Below the pieces are notes generated by a model. It saw nothing but the letters and a program-made list of their open reading frames with translations, made no database searches and had not been told where the DNA came from. From the NCBI GenBank assembly GCA_017554105.1, contig JAFZIY010000030.1, forward strand, positions 25,536 through 89,535: a DNA stretch of 64,000 bases, given 5' to 3'. A program made the position numbers and the translations under genes. Positions 43,037 through 47,434 of the stretch are shown here, in pieces; position 1 is the stretch's first letter; every line of letters begins with the position of its first letter. This DNA comes from Prevotella sp. (GTDB taxonomy: Bacteria > Bacteroidota > Bacteroidia > Bacteroidales > Bacteroidaceae).

Positions 43037-45103
43037 TTACTTTTCAGAAAATGATGCCTTAAACATCTGTTTTGTCATTGTCATTTCATTTCCATTGGCG
43101 TATCTGTAGATTTGCCATTTATCACCATCTTTAATAGGAATGTAAAAAATATGATTCTTTAGTTTCGCAGAAGCCGCCTTATAACAATCTTTCAAAACTT
43201 GTATTTTAGCTTTATATTCTTCTGGGTCAAAACCTGCATCTCCATTACCATTTACACTCTTCACTTCAAAGATGTGTATCTTACCTCGCTTATCCTTCAT
43301 GATGAAGTCAGGATAAGATTTATGGATGCCATCACTATAATATTCATATTTTATTTCCGAATTATATGGGAAATTTTTACCCCATAGATAACGTTCGTCT
43401 TCATCACCAAGTTGTGCCACTTCAGCTGCTTCTCTTGCGGCAATTTTGGAAAGATAGTTTGCCCATTCCCTTTCTGCATCGCTGTCAAAAGCAAATGTCG
43501 TGCTTTCAGATTCCTTCCTGCACCAAACCCATTCTTCTATTTCAGTTCGATTATCACTGTCCATATAAGTAGAATTAATAGGAAATGAAACCTCTTTATC
43601 TTCTACCATACTCTTATCATAATCGTTTATATAGGTATCGTATTTATGCTTCACTTTATCATAATGCTGCATGAAATCCCACCATTTTACATAATCACCA
43701 TTTGCATATTCGAATGACATTTCTCTCAAAGCATTATCACCCTGCTTCATTTTATTGAAAAGACTGAAAATGTCTTGATGTGTGGTAGAAGAAGGTTGGC
43801 TAGACATAAATGCAACGATGTCAAAATCTGCTCGTTCCGTCAGCCCAACCAATTTCGTTGTCTTTACCCTTATCTGTTCTTGCACATCTACAGTTCCCAT
43901 TTTCCACAGTTTAACGGGCATTATCTTATTCATGTTATCAGGCTTAATACCCCATACCCATGCTGTAGAAGCCAATTCCTGAGCCTCTTCTGACAGCATT
44001 TCATAATCTAGTAATCTGGGGTTGCGGCGAACTCTGCCCATAACTTGTTCATCCAGTTGTCTGCTTTGCGTATCGCGCACCTGAAATAGCATGCAAGCAC
44101 GTGGTATATCCCAACCCTCAGAGATAACCATCTTAAACACAATCACATCAATAGTAGAATGATTTCCCTTTGCATAGTCTTTCCATTTCGCTACAGGCAG
44201 TTTCTTTTTAACATCATCATTAGTATCGCAAAGTAATTCTTTAGACGTGTCTTTTGCGCCTGTTGTTTTGTAAGTGTTGACAATCACCATCCACTTTAAG
44301 GCTTGGTGTTTGTCTAAGGCGGGTTTTATTTTATTCTGCCATTCTTCTTCCGCCTTATCCTTATTAGAAATCTGAATGATAAGGCAAGGATGCACCCCAA
44401 TCAGATTGTTGTATTGCGTTTTAATTTCCAAGAATTTATCTATTGCATCATCAACGGTTGCGTTCTCATCTTCTATCAATTCCACTCTTTTTATCAACTT
44501 TGCCGCAACAGCCTCTTCATCACTGATTTGAACATCGGGCACTTGTCCTCTTGACAGTTTGGGTGTTGCTGAAAAATTAAATGTACGTGCAAAAAACTTT
44601 TCAGAGATTTCATCCAAGTTATTTGTAGCCTGATGACACTCGTCTTTTATGAGATATATTTTCTTTCCTAATCCCATACCAAAATCGCCAATGGTCATAG
44701 TTCGAAGAAAATGATCCATAGCACCACGCATCAAAATACCTCCAGCCTTAAATAAGTCACGGGGCAACACATAAACGTTATAATCCGTAGGAATAAACAA
44801 TTCTTCCTCTCCGCTTATTTCAGTATTAATGAGATAGGGTTTCAATTCCGGGTATGTTCCATCCTGAGAACACCTTAGAAAAGAGTCGTAGTTCTGCTGT
44901 GCTAGATTACCCTTAGAGAGTGTAGACACAAGGAAGATGATATCTTTTTGCTCCGCAAGTAGACGATTCATGAAATCTCCCATCATGTGTGTTTTCCCGC
45001 TACCTGTTGGGGCACGGAAAGTAAGCTCTTTTTTCTGGCCGTGCGCCTTGCTGAAGAGTTCAACAACAGCTCTATTTTGCAAATCCTTAGCTTCCTGTAG
45101 CAT
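43037..45103 (-). CDS. res: Type III restriction endonuclease subunit Res (DEAD/DEAH helicase plus PD-ExK nuclease)
   Basis: 688 aa, shorter than the roughly 970 aa of EcoP15I Res. Walker A TGSGKTHM is at residues 33-40 and DECH at 154-157. A C-terminal nuclease motif has YPDFIMKDKRGKIHIFEVKS (Asp, then EVK). It translocates or diffuses on DNA and cuts when two unmethylated sites are found. It lies 4 bp after mod. A/T-rich codon use differs from cls and tamL, so horizontal acquisition is likely. The Walker A box is unusually near the N terminus. Confidence 0.85.
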   Translation of the reverse strand: MLQEAKDLQNRAVVELFSKAHGQKKELTFRAPTGSGKTHMMGDFMNRLLAEQKDIIFLVSTLSKGNLAQQNYDSFLRCSQDGTYPELKPYLINTEISGEEELFIPTDYNVYVLPRDLFKAGGILMRGAMDHFLRTMTIGDFGMGLGKKIYLIKDECHQATNNLDEISEKFFARTFNFSATPKLSRGQVPDVQISDEEAVAAKLIKRVELIEDENATVDDAIDKFLEIKTQYNNLIGVHPCLIIQISNKDKAEEEWQNKIKPALDKHQALKWMVIVNTYKTTGAKDTSKELLCDTNDDVKKKLPVAKWKDYAKGNHSTIDVIVFKMVISEGWDIPRACMLFQVRDTQSRQLDEQVMGRVRRNPRLLDYEMLSEEAQELASTAWVWGIKPDNMNKIMPVKLWKMGTVDVQEQIRVKTTKLVGLTERADFDIVAFMSSQPSSTTHQDIFSLFNKMKQGDNALREMSFEYANGDYVKWWDFMQHYDKVKHKYDTYINDYDKSMVEDKEVSFPINSTYMDSDNRTEIEEWVWCRKESESTTFAFDSDAEREWANYLSKIAAREAAEVAQLGDEDERYLWGKNFPYNSEIKYEYYSDGIHKSYPDFIMKDKRGKIHIFEVKSVNGNGDAGFDPEEYKAKIQVLKDCYKAASAKLKNHIFYIPIKDGDKWQIYRYANGNEMTMTKQMFKASFSEK

Positions 45104-45107
45104 AATT

Positions 45108-46727
45108 TCAATCTTCCTTATTTACTGTCATTTGTGTTTGGGAGAAGTTATTACATACCCATTCTATTTTCTCGCGAGCTGTCTTGAATTTATCAATACC
45201 ATACAACGTTTCGTCAATAACATCAAATGGAGTCTGCCCAGGAGAGGCACTGGCATTTGAAACCTCGGCAATTTCGTACACTTCCAACTTGCCTCCGTAA
45301 GGCTCATTATCTTCTATCCATTTGAAATCCTTGCTGCCATCATAGCATTCGCCGGTCATAATACGTTTTAAACGCTTACTTGTTACATCGTATGCGATAC
45401 CATTAGGAGTTGTTTCTGTAATTTCATTTTGTTGACATATAATAAATGTTCTATGTCCACCATCTATGTTATTCAAATCCAAAATTGCATGGCCTGTTGT
45501 ACCAGATCCTGCAAAGAAATCAAGAATAACAGCATCTTTATTGGCTGTTGACATGTTAATGATACGCTCAATATAATCAACCGCTTTAGGATATTTAAAT
45601 TGTTCTGGTGGTATAATTGTTTTAAATAGAGTTTTTCCTGTAGATGTATCAATATCATCTATCCAACTTGTATATAATTTACTTGAGCTTACATCTGGTT
45701 CTTCATATACTTTTTCATAAGGAATATATTCAGACCTCTTAACCTTCACAACAACTAAACCTTCTTTGAACGCTTCACCCATTGTCGTTTTTCCCCATCT
45801 CCAACAGCCTTCATTATTAGCATCTAACATGGGGTATATTTCAACATCTTCATCATTCTCCCTTTTTACCGACAAACTATTATCATTGGGGTTGAAATAT
45901 ATCGGATAAAACAAATTTGGTCTATCCTCACGACGACTGTTGTCGCCCCATTTGCGTAGCAACTGTTCATTATAATTTAAATTCTTTTCTTCATCATAAT
46001 AACGATATTCCTTATTAACAAGTATTTTTCCTGATTCGTAATTGTCTATTGACTTAGCGTAACAAAGGAGGTATTCATGTACTATCGCAAAATGCTTACT
46101 ATCCTGTCTTCCCCCAGAACCTTTTTTAGGTATAGTTGTGATATAGTTTTTTTCTCTAAAAACTTCATCAAATAAGCATTTCACATACGCTTGATTCTTA
46201 TCATCAATACTACAAAATATCACTCCCCTTTCAGATAACAGTTGTTTTGCTAATTGTAAACGGAAATATAGCATTGATAACAAATTATCTCTACTGATGG
46301 CATTTTTGTAGTTGGTTTTTGCAAATTCCCCCATACTATCTTTACCATATGGAGGGTCAATATAGATGACGTCGATACTATTTCTATACTGAATTAGCAA
46401 ATTTTGCAAGGCATCATAATTTTCGCCTATGATGAGTTTGTGAATAGGTTCACCTTCGGCTGCCTCGCCAAAACTTAGTGCTTCATTCTTTTTAAAGTAC
46501 TTGATAGTATCTGACATCCTCGGCTCTTCCATTCGTTTGTCGAAATGGAAACCTGTGCGTTTGTATGTTGTACCAAGTGCGGCTATTGCCAGCGCTTCAT
46601 CATCGCTTTCTGCATTGGTGATTAGCTTACTTAAGAGAGCTGCGTTACTTGGCTCAAGAATTTTGTCTTCAACACGTGCTTGTAACTCAGAAAGAAGACT
46701 CTGTTTGGTTTCACTAATAACGCTCAT
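45108..46727 (-). CDS. mod: Type III DNA methyltransferase Mod
   Basis: 539 aa. The N6-adenine methyltransferase signature DPPYG is at residues 124-128 (IDVIYIDPPYG) and the SAM-binding motif FFAGSGTTGHAIL is near residue 400, the order of beta-class methyltransferases such as EcoP15I Mod. Between them lies the variable target-recognition region. There is no simple-sequence tract in the coding region of the kind that causes phase variation. Its start codon may be paired within the leader structure described separately. Confidence 0.9.
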   Translation of the reverse strand: MSVISETKQSLLSELQARVEDKILEPSNAALLSKLITNAESDDEALAIAALGTTYKRTGFHFDKRMEEPRMSDTIKYFKKNEALSFGEAAEGEPIHKLIIGENYDALQNLLIQYRNSIDVIYIDPPYGKDSMGEFAKTNYKNAISRDNLLSMLYFRLQLAKQLLSERGVIFCSIDDKNQAYVKCLFDEVFREKNYITTIPKKGSGGRQDSKHFAIVHEYLLCYAKSIDNYESGKILVNKEYRYYDEEKNLNYNEQLLRKWGDNSRREDRPNLFYPIYFNPNDNSLSVKRENDEDVEIYPMLDANNEGCWRWGKTTMGEAFKEGLVVVKVKRSEYIPYEKVYEEPDVSSSKLYTSWIDDIDTSTGKTLFKTIIPPEQFKYPKAVDYIERIINMSTANKDAVILDFFAGSGTTGHAILDLNNIDGGHRTFIICQQNEITETTPNGIAYDVTSKRLKRIMTGECYDGSKDFKWIEDNEPYGGKLEVYEIAEVSNASASPGQTPFDVIDETLYGIDKFKTAREKIEWVCNNFSQTQMTVNKED

Positions 46728-47090
46728 TTGGGGTTAATTCTATTTCTCTAAATCTGACTGATACCCAAATGCCAGAAAGTTATCAGATTTAAGTAACCAC
46801 ATACAAAAAGCGGGGTATCCTCATCTGCCCATCCTGCTATCTGAGGCCTTCCACAGCCCGACCAGTGAACGAACAGAGTTTGAATACCCACGCCAGTTAG
46901 TATATAATACATCCAAAAGTGTGCGTGAGGGCATTTTTGCCCTCGGCACACTCCGGGAGTACATACTACACCCGTAGCATTCACCTCCGCTATGCTCTTG
47001 ACTGGTCTATCATTGTGGAAGTTTCAGATAGCCAAAAACAAAGCATCAATGACGCTTTTCAATATGTGATTGTCCTGCCATAAGACATGA
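46725..47090 (-). ncRNA. Candidate structured leader RNA of mod
   Basis: About 365 nt lie between the predicted promoter and the mod start. Visible stems include AGTGTGC/GCACACT enclosing GAGGGCA/TGCCCTC (plus 46918-46952), and TCAGATTT/AAATCTGA (46750-46757 with 46783-46790). The loop of the latter holds CATTTGGG (46764-46771), which is complementary to CCCAAATG at the mod start (46725-46732), and the same GGG also fits GATACCC (46813-46819). These pairings are mutually exclusive. It is not tmRNA, RNase P RNA or SRP RNA by inspection. Function is inferred. Confidence 0.5.
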
Positions 47091-47096
47091 ACGATG

Positions 47097-47127
47097 CAAA
47101 TATACATAATTATATCATAAGAAGCAA
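47097..47127 (-). promoter_or_regulatory. Promoter of the mod leader
   Basis: On the minus strand TTG (47127-47125), 20-bp spacer, TATATTTG (47104-47097). The start of transcription would be near 47090. Confidence 0.65.
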
Positions 47128-47434
47128 CAATTTGAGCTTTTTTTGAAGGTGTTCGCTTAAAGATTTCGATTAGAGTTGAATTTTCATTCGACCTTTTCTC
47201 GCCAAGGCATAACTCAAATATCTTTGGTTCTGCTCTTATGGCTTAACGAAAACGTTGGTATTTCGCACTGCGTTTGATATATCTTCGGCTTTGTTGTTTG
47301 TATATGTTTTGTCGTGCGAAAGATAGCAAAATAGCGAATGGCAGCGCATCACTGCGCCGCCATTTGAATAACAAACATTAGTCGGCCCCCTCCAAACCTC
47401 CCCCACTGCTTTAATTAAATTTCTCCGCTAATTA
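47128..47434. other. A/T-rich gap without recognised genes
   Basis: I see no credible ORF here. It contains a CCCCCTCCAAACCTCCCCC stretch near 47387, reminiscent of the G/C-rich repeat, and several T-rich runs. Confidence 0.5.

Follow-up and report, generated by a model that had tools for sequence, protein, structure and literature searches.

Is the expression of a type III modification gene in Prevotella gated by the RNA in front of it? The question is raised by a locus in the stretch of Prevotella DNA analysed here (64,000 nucleotides, referred to as the window), in which mod and res form a type III restriction-modification pair. Restriction and modification need to be in balance, otherwise the host is harmed. 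According to the accessible parts of PMC3874152 and PMC12707154, control is known to act through regulatory proteins, promoter methylation, antisense RNA and simple hairpins. For mod, an earlier note had proposed a translational ON/OFF switch made of competing pairings just before the gene, which might time Mod before Res. Since mod and res share one orientation with a gap of 4 bp, such a leader would act on both. The genes, the leader and its promoter are arranged as follows:

43037..45103, minus strand: res gene, 688 aa, ResIII (PF04851)
45108..46727, minus strand: mod gene, 539 aa, N6_N4_Mtase (PF01555)
46753..47090, minus strand: whole leader RNA (RNA1 plus c hairpin), about 350 nt, with a putative 5' end
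46794..47070, minus strand: match to covariance model R1, 239.6 bits (the window copy is one of the 15 copies used to build the model)
47097..47104, minus strand: promoter -7 box TATATTTG, by sequence match to the type TAnnTTTG

We take the TAnnTTTG box to be a Bacteroidales-type promoter, and we infer that the transcript of the window starts near 47090. The leader thus lies on the same strand as mod, shortly before the gene, with its own promoter by sequence match. When 311 nt of the leader were folded, the energy was far below that of its shuffles (z = -5.3). A terminator consensus scan of the window returned two terminator-like hairpins against 1.1 expected, at 47337-47364 (minus strand) and 47040-47058 (minus strand); the second is the conserved P2 hairpin described below.

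The three pairings of the earlier note are all present on the minus (mRNA) strand. CATTTGGG at 46771-46764 is complementary to CCCAAATG at 46732-46725, which contains the mod ATG (46727-46725). GGGTATC at 46766-46760 is complementary to GATACCC at 46819-46813, and an outer stem pairs AAATCTGA (46790-46783) with TCAGATTT (46757-46750). Taken singly in the window, the three are close to chance level. A repeat scan found 14 inverted pairs of at least 8 bases within 851 bases, and the 76-nt segment that holds the outer stem and the start-codon pairing folded just like its shuffles (z = -0.02). For the 8-base start-codon pairing, p was 0.017 with mononucleotide shuffles of two 33-nt stretches, and 0.42 when duplex energy was compared with dinucleotide shuffles. 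The reading in the note was right in kind but covers just the last 100 nt or so of a leader of about 350 nt.

Relatives of the leader and its conserved helices

We searched the own genome with 373 leader bases and obtained 15 matches at E<=10. Four were strong, namely the window copy and three others at 68-73% identity. Among 40 genomes (own included), 11 matched the leader at E<=0.001, all in the same genus. Model R1 was then built from 15 oriented and aligned copies and has 283 positions. At E<=1e-4 (E-values of R1, and of model R2 below, are rough owing to a short calibration), R1 matched 282 of 398 genomes of the genus, 121 of the 175 better assemblies, 79 of 121 genomes of the family in 23 of 30 genera, and 15 of 119 genomes of the order. 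These counts take in two score classes, a strong one roughly above about 130 bits and a weak one mostly at 50-100 bits. The search of the 398 genomes scored 4 candidates per genome, so that copy numbers are lower bounds. At E<=0.001, 12 of 15 genomes matched (the own genome and 14 assemblies of 1-10 contigs).

Named genomes contained at least 119 stretches with the pattern of the P2 hairpin, 80 of which were turned into loci. Their titles read Prevotella, Prevotellaceae, Alloprevotella, Bacteroidaceae, Bacteroidales or Bacteroidia, and many refer to the ruminant gut; going by title, Prevotella communis E15-14 and Prevotella sp. ne3005 and tc2-28 are among the carriers of full-length copies. 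R1 reached at least 98 bits in 75 of these 80 loci; as they stem from one exact P2 pattern, the set leans to that subtype. The P2 pattern was absent from the viral contigs searched. blastn found no match of the L097 leader in plasmids or phages and none of the window leader in phages. Some copies are shortened (L054, L119, L123, L125 and L106) and were removed before counting; L123, which is the same as L013, lacks the central hairpin domain and keeps helices A and B as well as strands a, b and c.

We rejected a described RNA family as an explanation, with no Rfam 15 match over the element. For the window leader no family reached its curated gathering threshold, and a permissive E-value gave five weak matches, all far under threshold. 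Across 16 loci, the gathering threshold yielded four matches, none over the leader element. Elsewhere, an abiF RNA (RF03085, 58.5 bits) lies at L178:117-153 (minus strand), about 1.35 kb from a weak-class copy, and a SAM-I/IV riboswitch (RF01725) lies at L124:2703-2816 (plus strand), on the opposite strand beyond the methyltransferase and probably unrelated. Apparently, the leader belongs to a large, uncatalogued RNA family that is common in Prevotella and its relatives.

Of 93 strong copies, 92 have the TAnnTTTG box at most 150 nt before the model start, mostly at a distance of 45-72 nt; random windows from the same loci have it in 184 of 1960 cases. Of the weak copies, 28 of 32 carried the box, compared with 64 of 640 random windows from the same loci. 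The helices of the conserved part are the following:

47063..47070, minus strand: P1 5' strand ATCACATA, pairs with 46803-46796
46796..46803, minus strand: P1 3' strand TATGTGGT, pairs with 47063..47070
47040..47058, minus strand: P2 hairpin AAAGCGTCATTGATGCTTT, then GTTTTTGG; also a match to the terminator-like consensus
47026..47032, minus strand: helix A 5' strand GCTATCT, pairs with 46842-46836
46836..46842, minus strand: helix A 3' strand AGATAGC, from covariation and mutual information
47022..47025, minus strand: 5' side of the core internal loop, GAAA, from the core descriptor
46843..46847, minus strand: 3' side of the core internal loop, GCCTC, from the core descriptor
47014..47021, minus strand: helix B 5' strand CTTCCACA, pairs with 46855-46848
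46848..46855, minus strand: helix B 3' strand TGTGGAAG, within a hairpin loop closed by GGC/GCC, from mutual information and covariation
47001..47006, minus strand: helix C 5' strand ACCAGT, pairs with 46866-46861
46861..46866, minus strand: helix C 3' strand ACTGGT, from mutual information and covariation
46919..46951, minus strand: P8/P9 hairpin GTGTGC-GAGGGC ... GCCCTC-GCACAC, from pairing counts

We calculated corrected mutual information for an alignment of 92 copies, with an effective number of 74. Among the highest-ranking column pairs, many were antiparallel and complementary, such as 47001-47006 with 46861-46866, 47017-47019 with 46850-46852 and 47025-47031 with 46836-46843, some of them one base off the register of the window. 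Other high scores were non-complementary and mirrored the split into subtypes. Helix C held the top-scoring column pair overall, and helix A ranks 4 and 16.

We then counted pairs in alignment A8, made from 38 of the 90 usable copies. Over the 62 proposed pairs, 87.3% of cells were paired and 34 pairs showed two-sided changes. None of 500 shuffles scored as high on any of five measures, and slid partners gave 37-49%; since the aligned copies are kin, the counts are not independent. Two-sided changes affected all seven pairs of helix A (72.1% of cells paired), all six of helix C (76.8%) and all seven in the main run of helix B (92.1%). The eighth pair of helix B was paired in 86.8% without two-sided changes, and the GGC/GCC stem around the helix B 3' strand in 95.6%. 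P1 was paired in 84.9% of cells, with two-sided changes at 2 of 8 pairs. The five pairs counted in P2 were 100% paired and four were invariant, hence P2 is without covariation. P8 was likewise 100% paired and almost invariant, while P9 reached 62.7%. That is, the leader has a conserved secondary structure with compensatory changes.

An internal loop separates helices A and B; in the window, GAAA faces GCCTC there. We turned this core into a descriptor (helix, [GA]AAN, helix ... helix, linker with RCC, helix). It fitted 73 of 98 strong and 28 of 32 weak copies, whereas the controls gave no fit in 650 shuffled windows and 2 in 1357 real ones.

Strands a, b, c and d

Four further strands, on either side of the end of the conserved part, can pair in alternative ways:

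46883..46893, minus strand: strand a, GCGTGGGTATT, pairs with b
46810..46819, minus strand: strand b, GATACCCCGC, pairs with a or c
46805..46809, minus strand: U-run behind b, a putative termination site
46753..46776, minus strand: c hairpin TCTGGC ... GTCAGA, its loop holding GGGTATC (46766-46760), from the stem and the b:c pairing
46725..46732, minus strand: strand d, CCCAAATG, which holds the start codon of mod; its partner is 46771-46764, from the c:d test on the set of loci

Strand b contains GATACCC in the window and AAGCACCC in many other copies. The earlier note had paired GATACCC with the loop downstream and missed its second partner, strand a, which lies upstream. A switch is plausible precisely because GATACCC has this partner, which closes a hairpin followed by the U-run. 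The a:b pairing was possible in 97.7% of cells, with two-sided changes at 3 of 7 pairs, and the 89-nt hairpin that it closes has an energy of -38.5 kcal/mol (z = -3.96). Together with the U-run it resembles an intrinsic terminator with a large loop, at which transcription may end; the terminator consensus scan, covering loops of 3-8 only, does not report it. Because helices A, B and C cross the a:b hairpin, the fold of the leader is pseudoknotted.

Strand c lies downstream of b, mostly at a single distance, and is complementary to it. The pairing of GGGTATC with GATACCC is kept in relatives, with 92.8% of cells paired and two-sided changes at 4 of 7 pairs. Counted together, b:c and the c stem beat all of 500 shuffles in cells paired, cells with two-sided changes and covariation score; of the 500, however, 187 had at least as many pairs with two-sided changes, and 466 at least as many pair types. 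The mean b:c energy was -12.3 kcal/mol versus -7.1 kcal/mol in shuffles; of the 92 loci, 68 reached p<=0.05 and 45 reached p<=0.01. Under a stricter control, in which regions of other loci were used (mean -9.3), 16 of 92 loci passed the 5% level; few pass because b and c fall into a small number of shared types. The outer stem of the earlier note is not conserved (41.0% paired versus 37.8% in shuffles). Instead, the inner stem TCTGGC/GTCAGA recurs, with 68.1% of cells paired. A stem of at least 6 bp surrounded c in 67 of 85 loci, as compared to 124 of 425 controls; the other 7 of the 92 loci had no good c and were not counted.

We analysed burial of the start codon in the 32 loci whose gene begins shortly after c. 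Duplexes between c and its own start region had a mean energy of -10.2 kcal/mol versus -8.1 kcal/mol for permuted regions, and none of 5000 permutations was as good. Singly, only 7 of the 32 loci reached p<=0.05. The proposed burial is thus supported across the set, while the window by itself gives weak evidence (p = 0.42). In the window, the duplex energies of a:b, b:c and c:d are of similar size (-13.9, -11.7 and -11.9 kcal/mol; c:d is -8.7 kcal/mol with a shorter window for c). The comparison of relatives supports a structured leader with the pairings a:b, b:c and, as a set, c:d, which would be mutually exclusive.

Genes behind the leader

Among 116 strong forward copies, 98 were unique (18 duplicates were dropped) and 94 had a usable ORF, four having none; the counts exclude loci whose downstream sequence was too short. 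As the downstream gene we took the longest ORF, rather than the nearest, among those that begin within 700 nt. Pfam counts, given per family with overlaps possible, were 53 for DNA_methylase, 10 for MethyltransfD12, 5 each for N6_N4_Mtase, Eco57I and N6_Mtase, and 3 for the TdeIII restriction enzyme. In this set, which is biased by the pattern and leans to top model scores, 70 of 94 downstream genes carried methyltransferase motifs. Among the 24 others, L035 seems to encode a truncated C5 enzyme, and L031, L086 and, by similarity, L088 encode TdeIII enzymes.

A less selected sample comprised 13 copies of at least 170 bits in 15 genomes (the own genome and 14 others). Six preceded a methyltransferase (the window mod, L172, L173, L175, L184 and L185) and seven did not (three in the own genome, L174, L176, L177 and L192). 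The own-genome strong copies L002, L003 and L004 precede genes without methyltransferase motifs, and the gene of L002 is without a Pfam family. Restriction enzymes and an abortive-infection protein also lie behind related leaders, as do, judged by eye, secreted proteins. A leader specific to mod was rejected, because genes of other kinds follow further copies.

In the weak class, 31 proteins (L186, with 63 aa, was left out of the 32 loci) matched 13 Pfam families, none of them a methyltransferase; leucine-rich repeats, NusG-like and VWA proteins were among them. PADLOC matched five defence models in this class, TerY in two members. NusG-like proteins lie downstream in two weak-class loci according to Pfam and in L015 by eye, a possible link to antitermination. 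In 24 of the 32 weak loci the longest ORF begins 35-65 nt behind the element.

Conversely, R1 was found at 1 of the 30 best C5-methyltransferase loci of the genus, and therefore the RNA marks a subset of these genes. At least five further C5-methyltransferase matches lie downstream of R1 places (two in G065, one each in G048, G018 and G135). The leader family is strongly associated with modification genes, and one branch of this broad family has become attached to them.

Matches to mod at E<=1e-60 occurred in 13 of the 398 genus genomes, own included. R1 at E<=0.1 was found in 1 of 12 related mod loci (L288, 50 bits). When the leaders of these relatives were checked for the helix core, it was present upstream of 5 of 8 (L288, L289, L290, L291 and L294, of which L290 and L291 are nearly identical), but absent from L286 and L287, the closest full-length relatives. 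The refuting condition set by the note, lack of conservation in related mod genes, thus receives a mixed answer. The core descriptor did not match upstream of the L292 mod gene either, where long complementary strands were seen by eye.

In 34 of the 98 strong copies, a second conserved RNA (RNA2) lies between RNA1 and the gene, its terminator just before the methyltransferase start. RNA2 was extracted with a pattern of a terminator followed by ATG or GTG within 8 nt, which favours such a layout. Over 22 pairs in its helices, 99.8% of cells were paired and 8 pairs showed two-sided changes; 0 of 500 shuffles reached the real value on four measures and 1 of 500 on the fifth. The last four bases of its pseudoknot strand, CCACGCCC, also belong to the 5' arm of the terminator hairpin, which reads GCCCCCTTTTC ... 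GAAGAGAGGGC before a T-run (-14.2 kcal/mol and z = -4.03 in L117). As the pseudoknot strand overlaps a terminator at or near the start codon, this layout points to transcription attenuation. Pseudoknot and terminator are almost invariant, and covariation is uninformative for both. The core descriptor fitted 32 of the 34 RNA2 copies. A third type, RNA3, was found at 11 loci and likewise ends in a terminator-like hairpin; the common core descriptor fitted none of the 11.

Model R2 matched 39 of 249 genus genomes at E<=1e-5. In the 30 R2 loci fetched, an ORF starts at the model end in 20 and 10-57 nt beyond it in 10. Twelve of the 30 were without R1 above 25 bits in the available flank (L245, L253-L261, L263 and L264); the flanks of L241 and L252 were too short to judge. 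The gene scan covered nine of these twelve and showed C5 methyltransferases (L245, L256 and L257), an AIPR abortive-infection protein (L254), the restriction enzymes RE_Alw26IDE (L259) and RE_BstXI (L263), and a TPR protein (L255), while no Pfam family matched the downstream proteins of L253 and L260.

Four loci encode TPR proteins that look like one family, two of them following RNA1 and two following RNA2 (L009, L011, L255 and L261; L011 and L261 were assigned by similarity of the protein starts). RNA1 and RNA2 seem to share a target, because alike TPR proteins lie behind both. Some loci also carry a conserved ORF of about 90-100 aa (MAKY...) between RNA1 and RNA2, as at L131:2603-2872 (minus strand), with similar short ORFs in L092, L122, L091, L121 and L084; the L131 copy matched no Pfam family.

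A possible switch, its rivals and its meaning

Judged from sequence comparison, we consider it probable that RNA1 and the c hairpin form a cis-acting structured leader, one of a large Bacteroidales family, that gates expression of the gene immediately behind it, in the window that of the type III modification enzyme. Two states can be envisaged. In an OFF state, a:b and c:d would form, burying the start codon and perhaps ending transcription at the U-run. In an ON state, c would bind b and leave d free. Since c lies behind the U-run, b:c cannot block termination there during transcription. Folding of the core upon binding of a ligand, a protein or an RNA could tip the balance, because the energies of the three duplexes are similar. 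In many relatives, RNA2 would add attenuation at the methyltransferase start.

RNA1 might instead be a stand-alone non-coding RNA that ends at the U-run, the gene being reached by read-through or merely co-located through defence islands. Such an RNA would account for the promoter box, for the strong hairpin and U-run at the 3' end of the conserved part and for downstream genes of no single kind, but not for a strand c that lies beyond the U-run at a near-constant distance, varies with b and matches its own start region. The short gap of 35-65 nt to the longest ORF in 24 of 32 weak-class loci also argues against it, and we consider a stand-alone RNA unlikely.

A constitutive fold, in which leader and c hairpin are fixed and serve, for example, mRNA stability or as a protein platform without switching, appears improbable to us. 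It would explain why a:b and b:c are nearly always possible, as a three-strand or transient interaction would give the same counts. However, pairing with a occupies the very seven bases of b that c needs, and c in turn also matches d.

Several copies per genome could also indicate a dispersed mobile or repeat DNA element without RNA function. We rejected this very remote alternative, as covariation disfavours it; compensatory base changes and a promoter box at near-constant distance are at odds with it, as are the absence of the P2 pattern from the viral contigs and the negative blastn searches of plasmids and phages (L097) and of phages (window). A chance fold of one leader, suggested by the near-chance level of the three original helices taken singly, is refuted by the relatives (R1 matches, mutual information and covariation); the folding z of -5.3 speaks against it too, and it deserves practically no credence.

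The cis-acting leader invites comparison with known systems. Riboswitches and other cis-regulatory leaders likewise have a structured 5' leader; their exclusive helices and their output by terminator or start-codon burial would correspond to the switch proposed here. The present leader differs in having no known ligand or Rfam 15 match, in its large pseudoknotted core and in that one branch of its family is rich in restriction-modification genes. An attenuator of the trp type has four strands, of which 1:2 with 3:4 stands against 2:3. Strands a, b, c and d have the same layout, but the output of c:d is a start codon and not a terminator. The abiF RNA (RF03085) is a structured RNA tied to phage defence; its model has 37 positions, unlike our leader, over which it has no match.

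Control of restriction-modification at the RNA level is also found in Cfr9I and other systems, where hairpins or antisense RNA limit access to the start of the restriction enzyme gene (accessible text of PMC12707154). The words 'riboswitch' and 'attenuation' do not occur in the accessible text of PMC12707154 and PMC3874152. The smtA motif, a candidate structured RNA upstream of a SAM-dependent methyltransferase gene according to the part of PMC11109978 at hand, resembles our leader in its position but is tied to smtA; 'Bacteroid', 'Prevotella' and 'restriction' are absent from the main text of that source as available. The available portion of PMC8040213 has one Prevotella passage, about uvrC, and contains neither 'methyltransferase' nor 'restriction', although a prior prediction could be among the thousands of candidates in its supplement. 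The searched terms were also absent from the accessible portion of PMC2864571. In the literature searched, as far as its text was accessible, no paper was recognised as describing the leader. We claim the leader as new only relative to Rfam 15 and this literature.

More tentatively, the leaders could make up a Bacteroidales superfamily of large pseudoknotted RNAs, whose RNA1-strong and RNA2 branches largely serve restriction-modification and phage defence. These would be sensors, possibly riboswitches, through which a cellular or infection signal turns DNA modification and restriction on or off, in many cases by two tandem attenuators on a single message. The leader would represent a new orphan RNA class common in Prevotella. 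Located before unrelated methyltransferases (cytosine-5, D12, N6/N4 and Eco57I types), it would amount to a general layer of RNA control.
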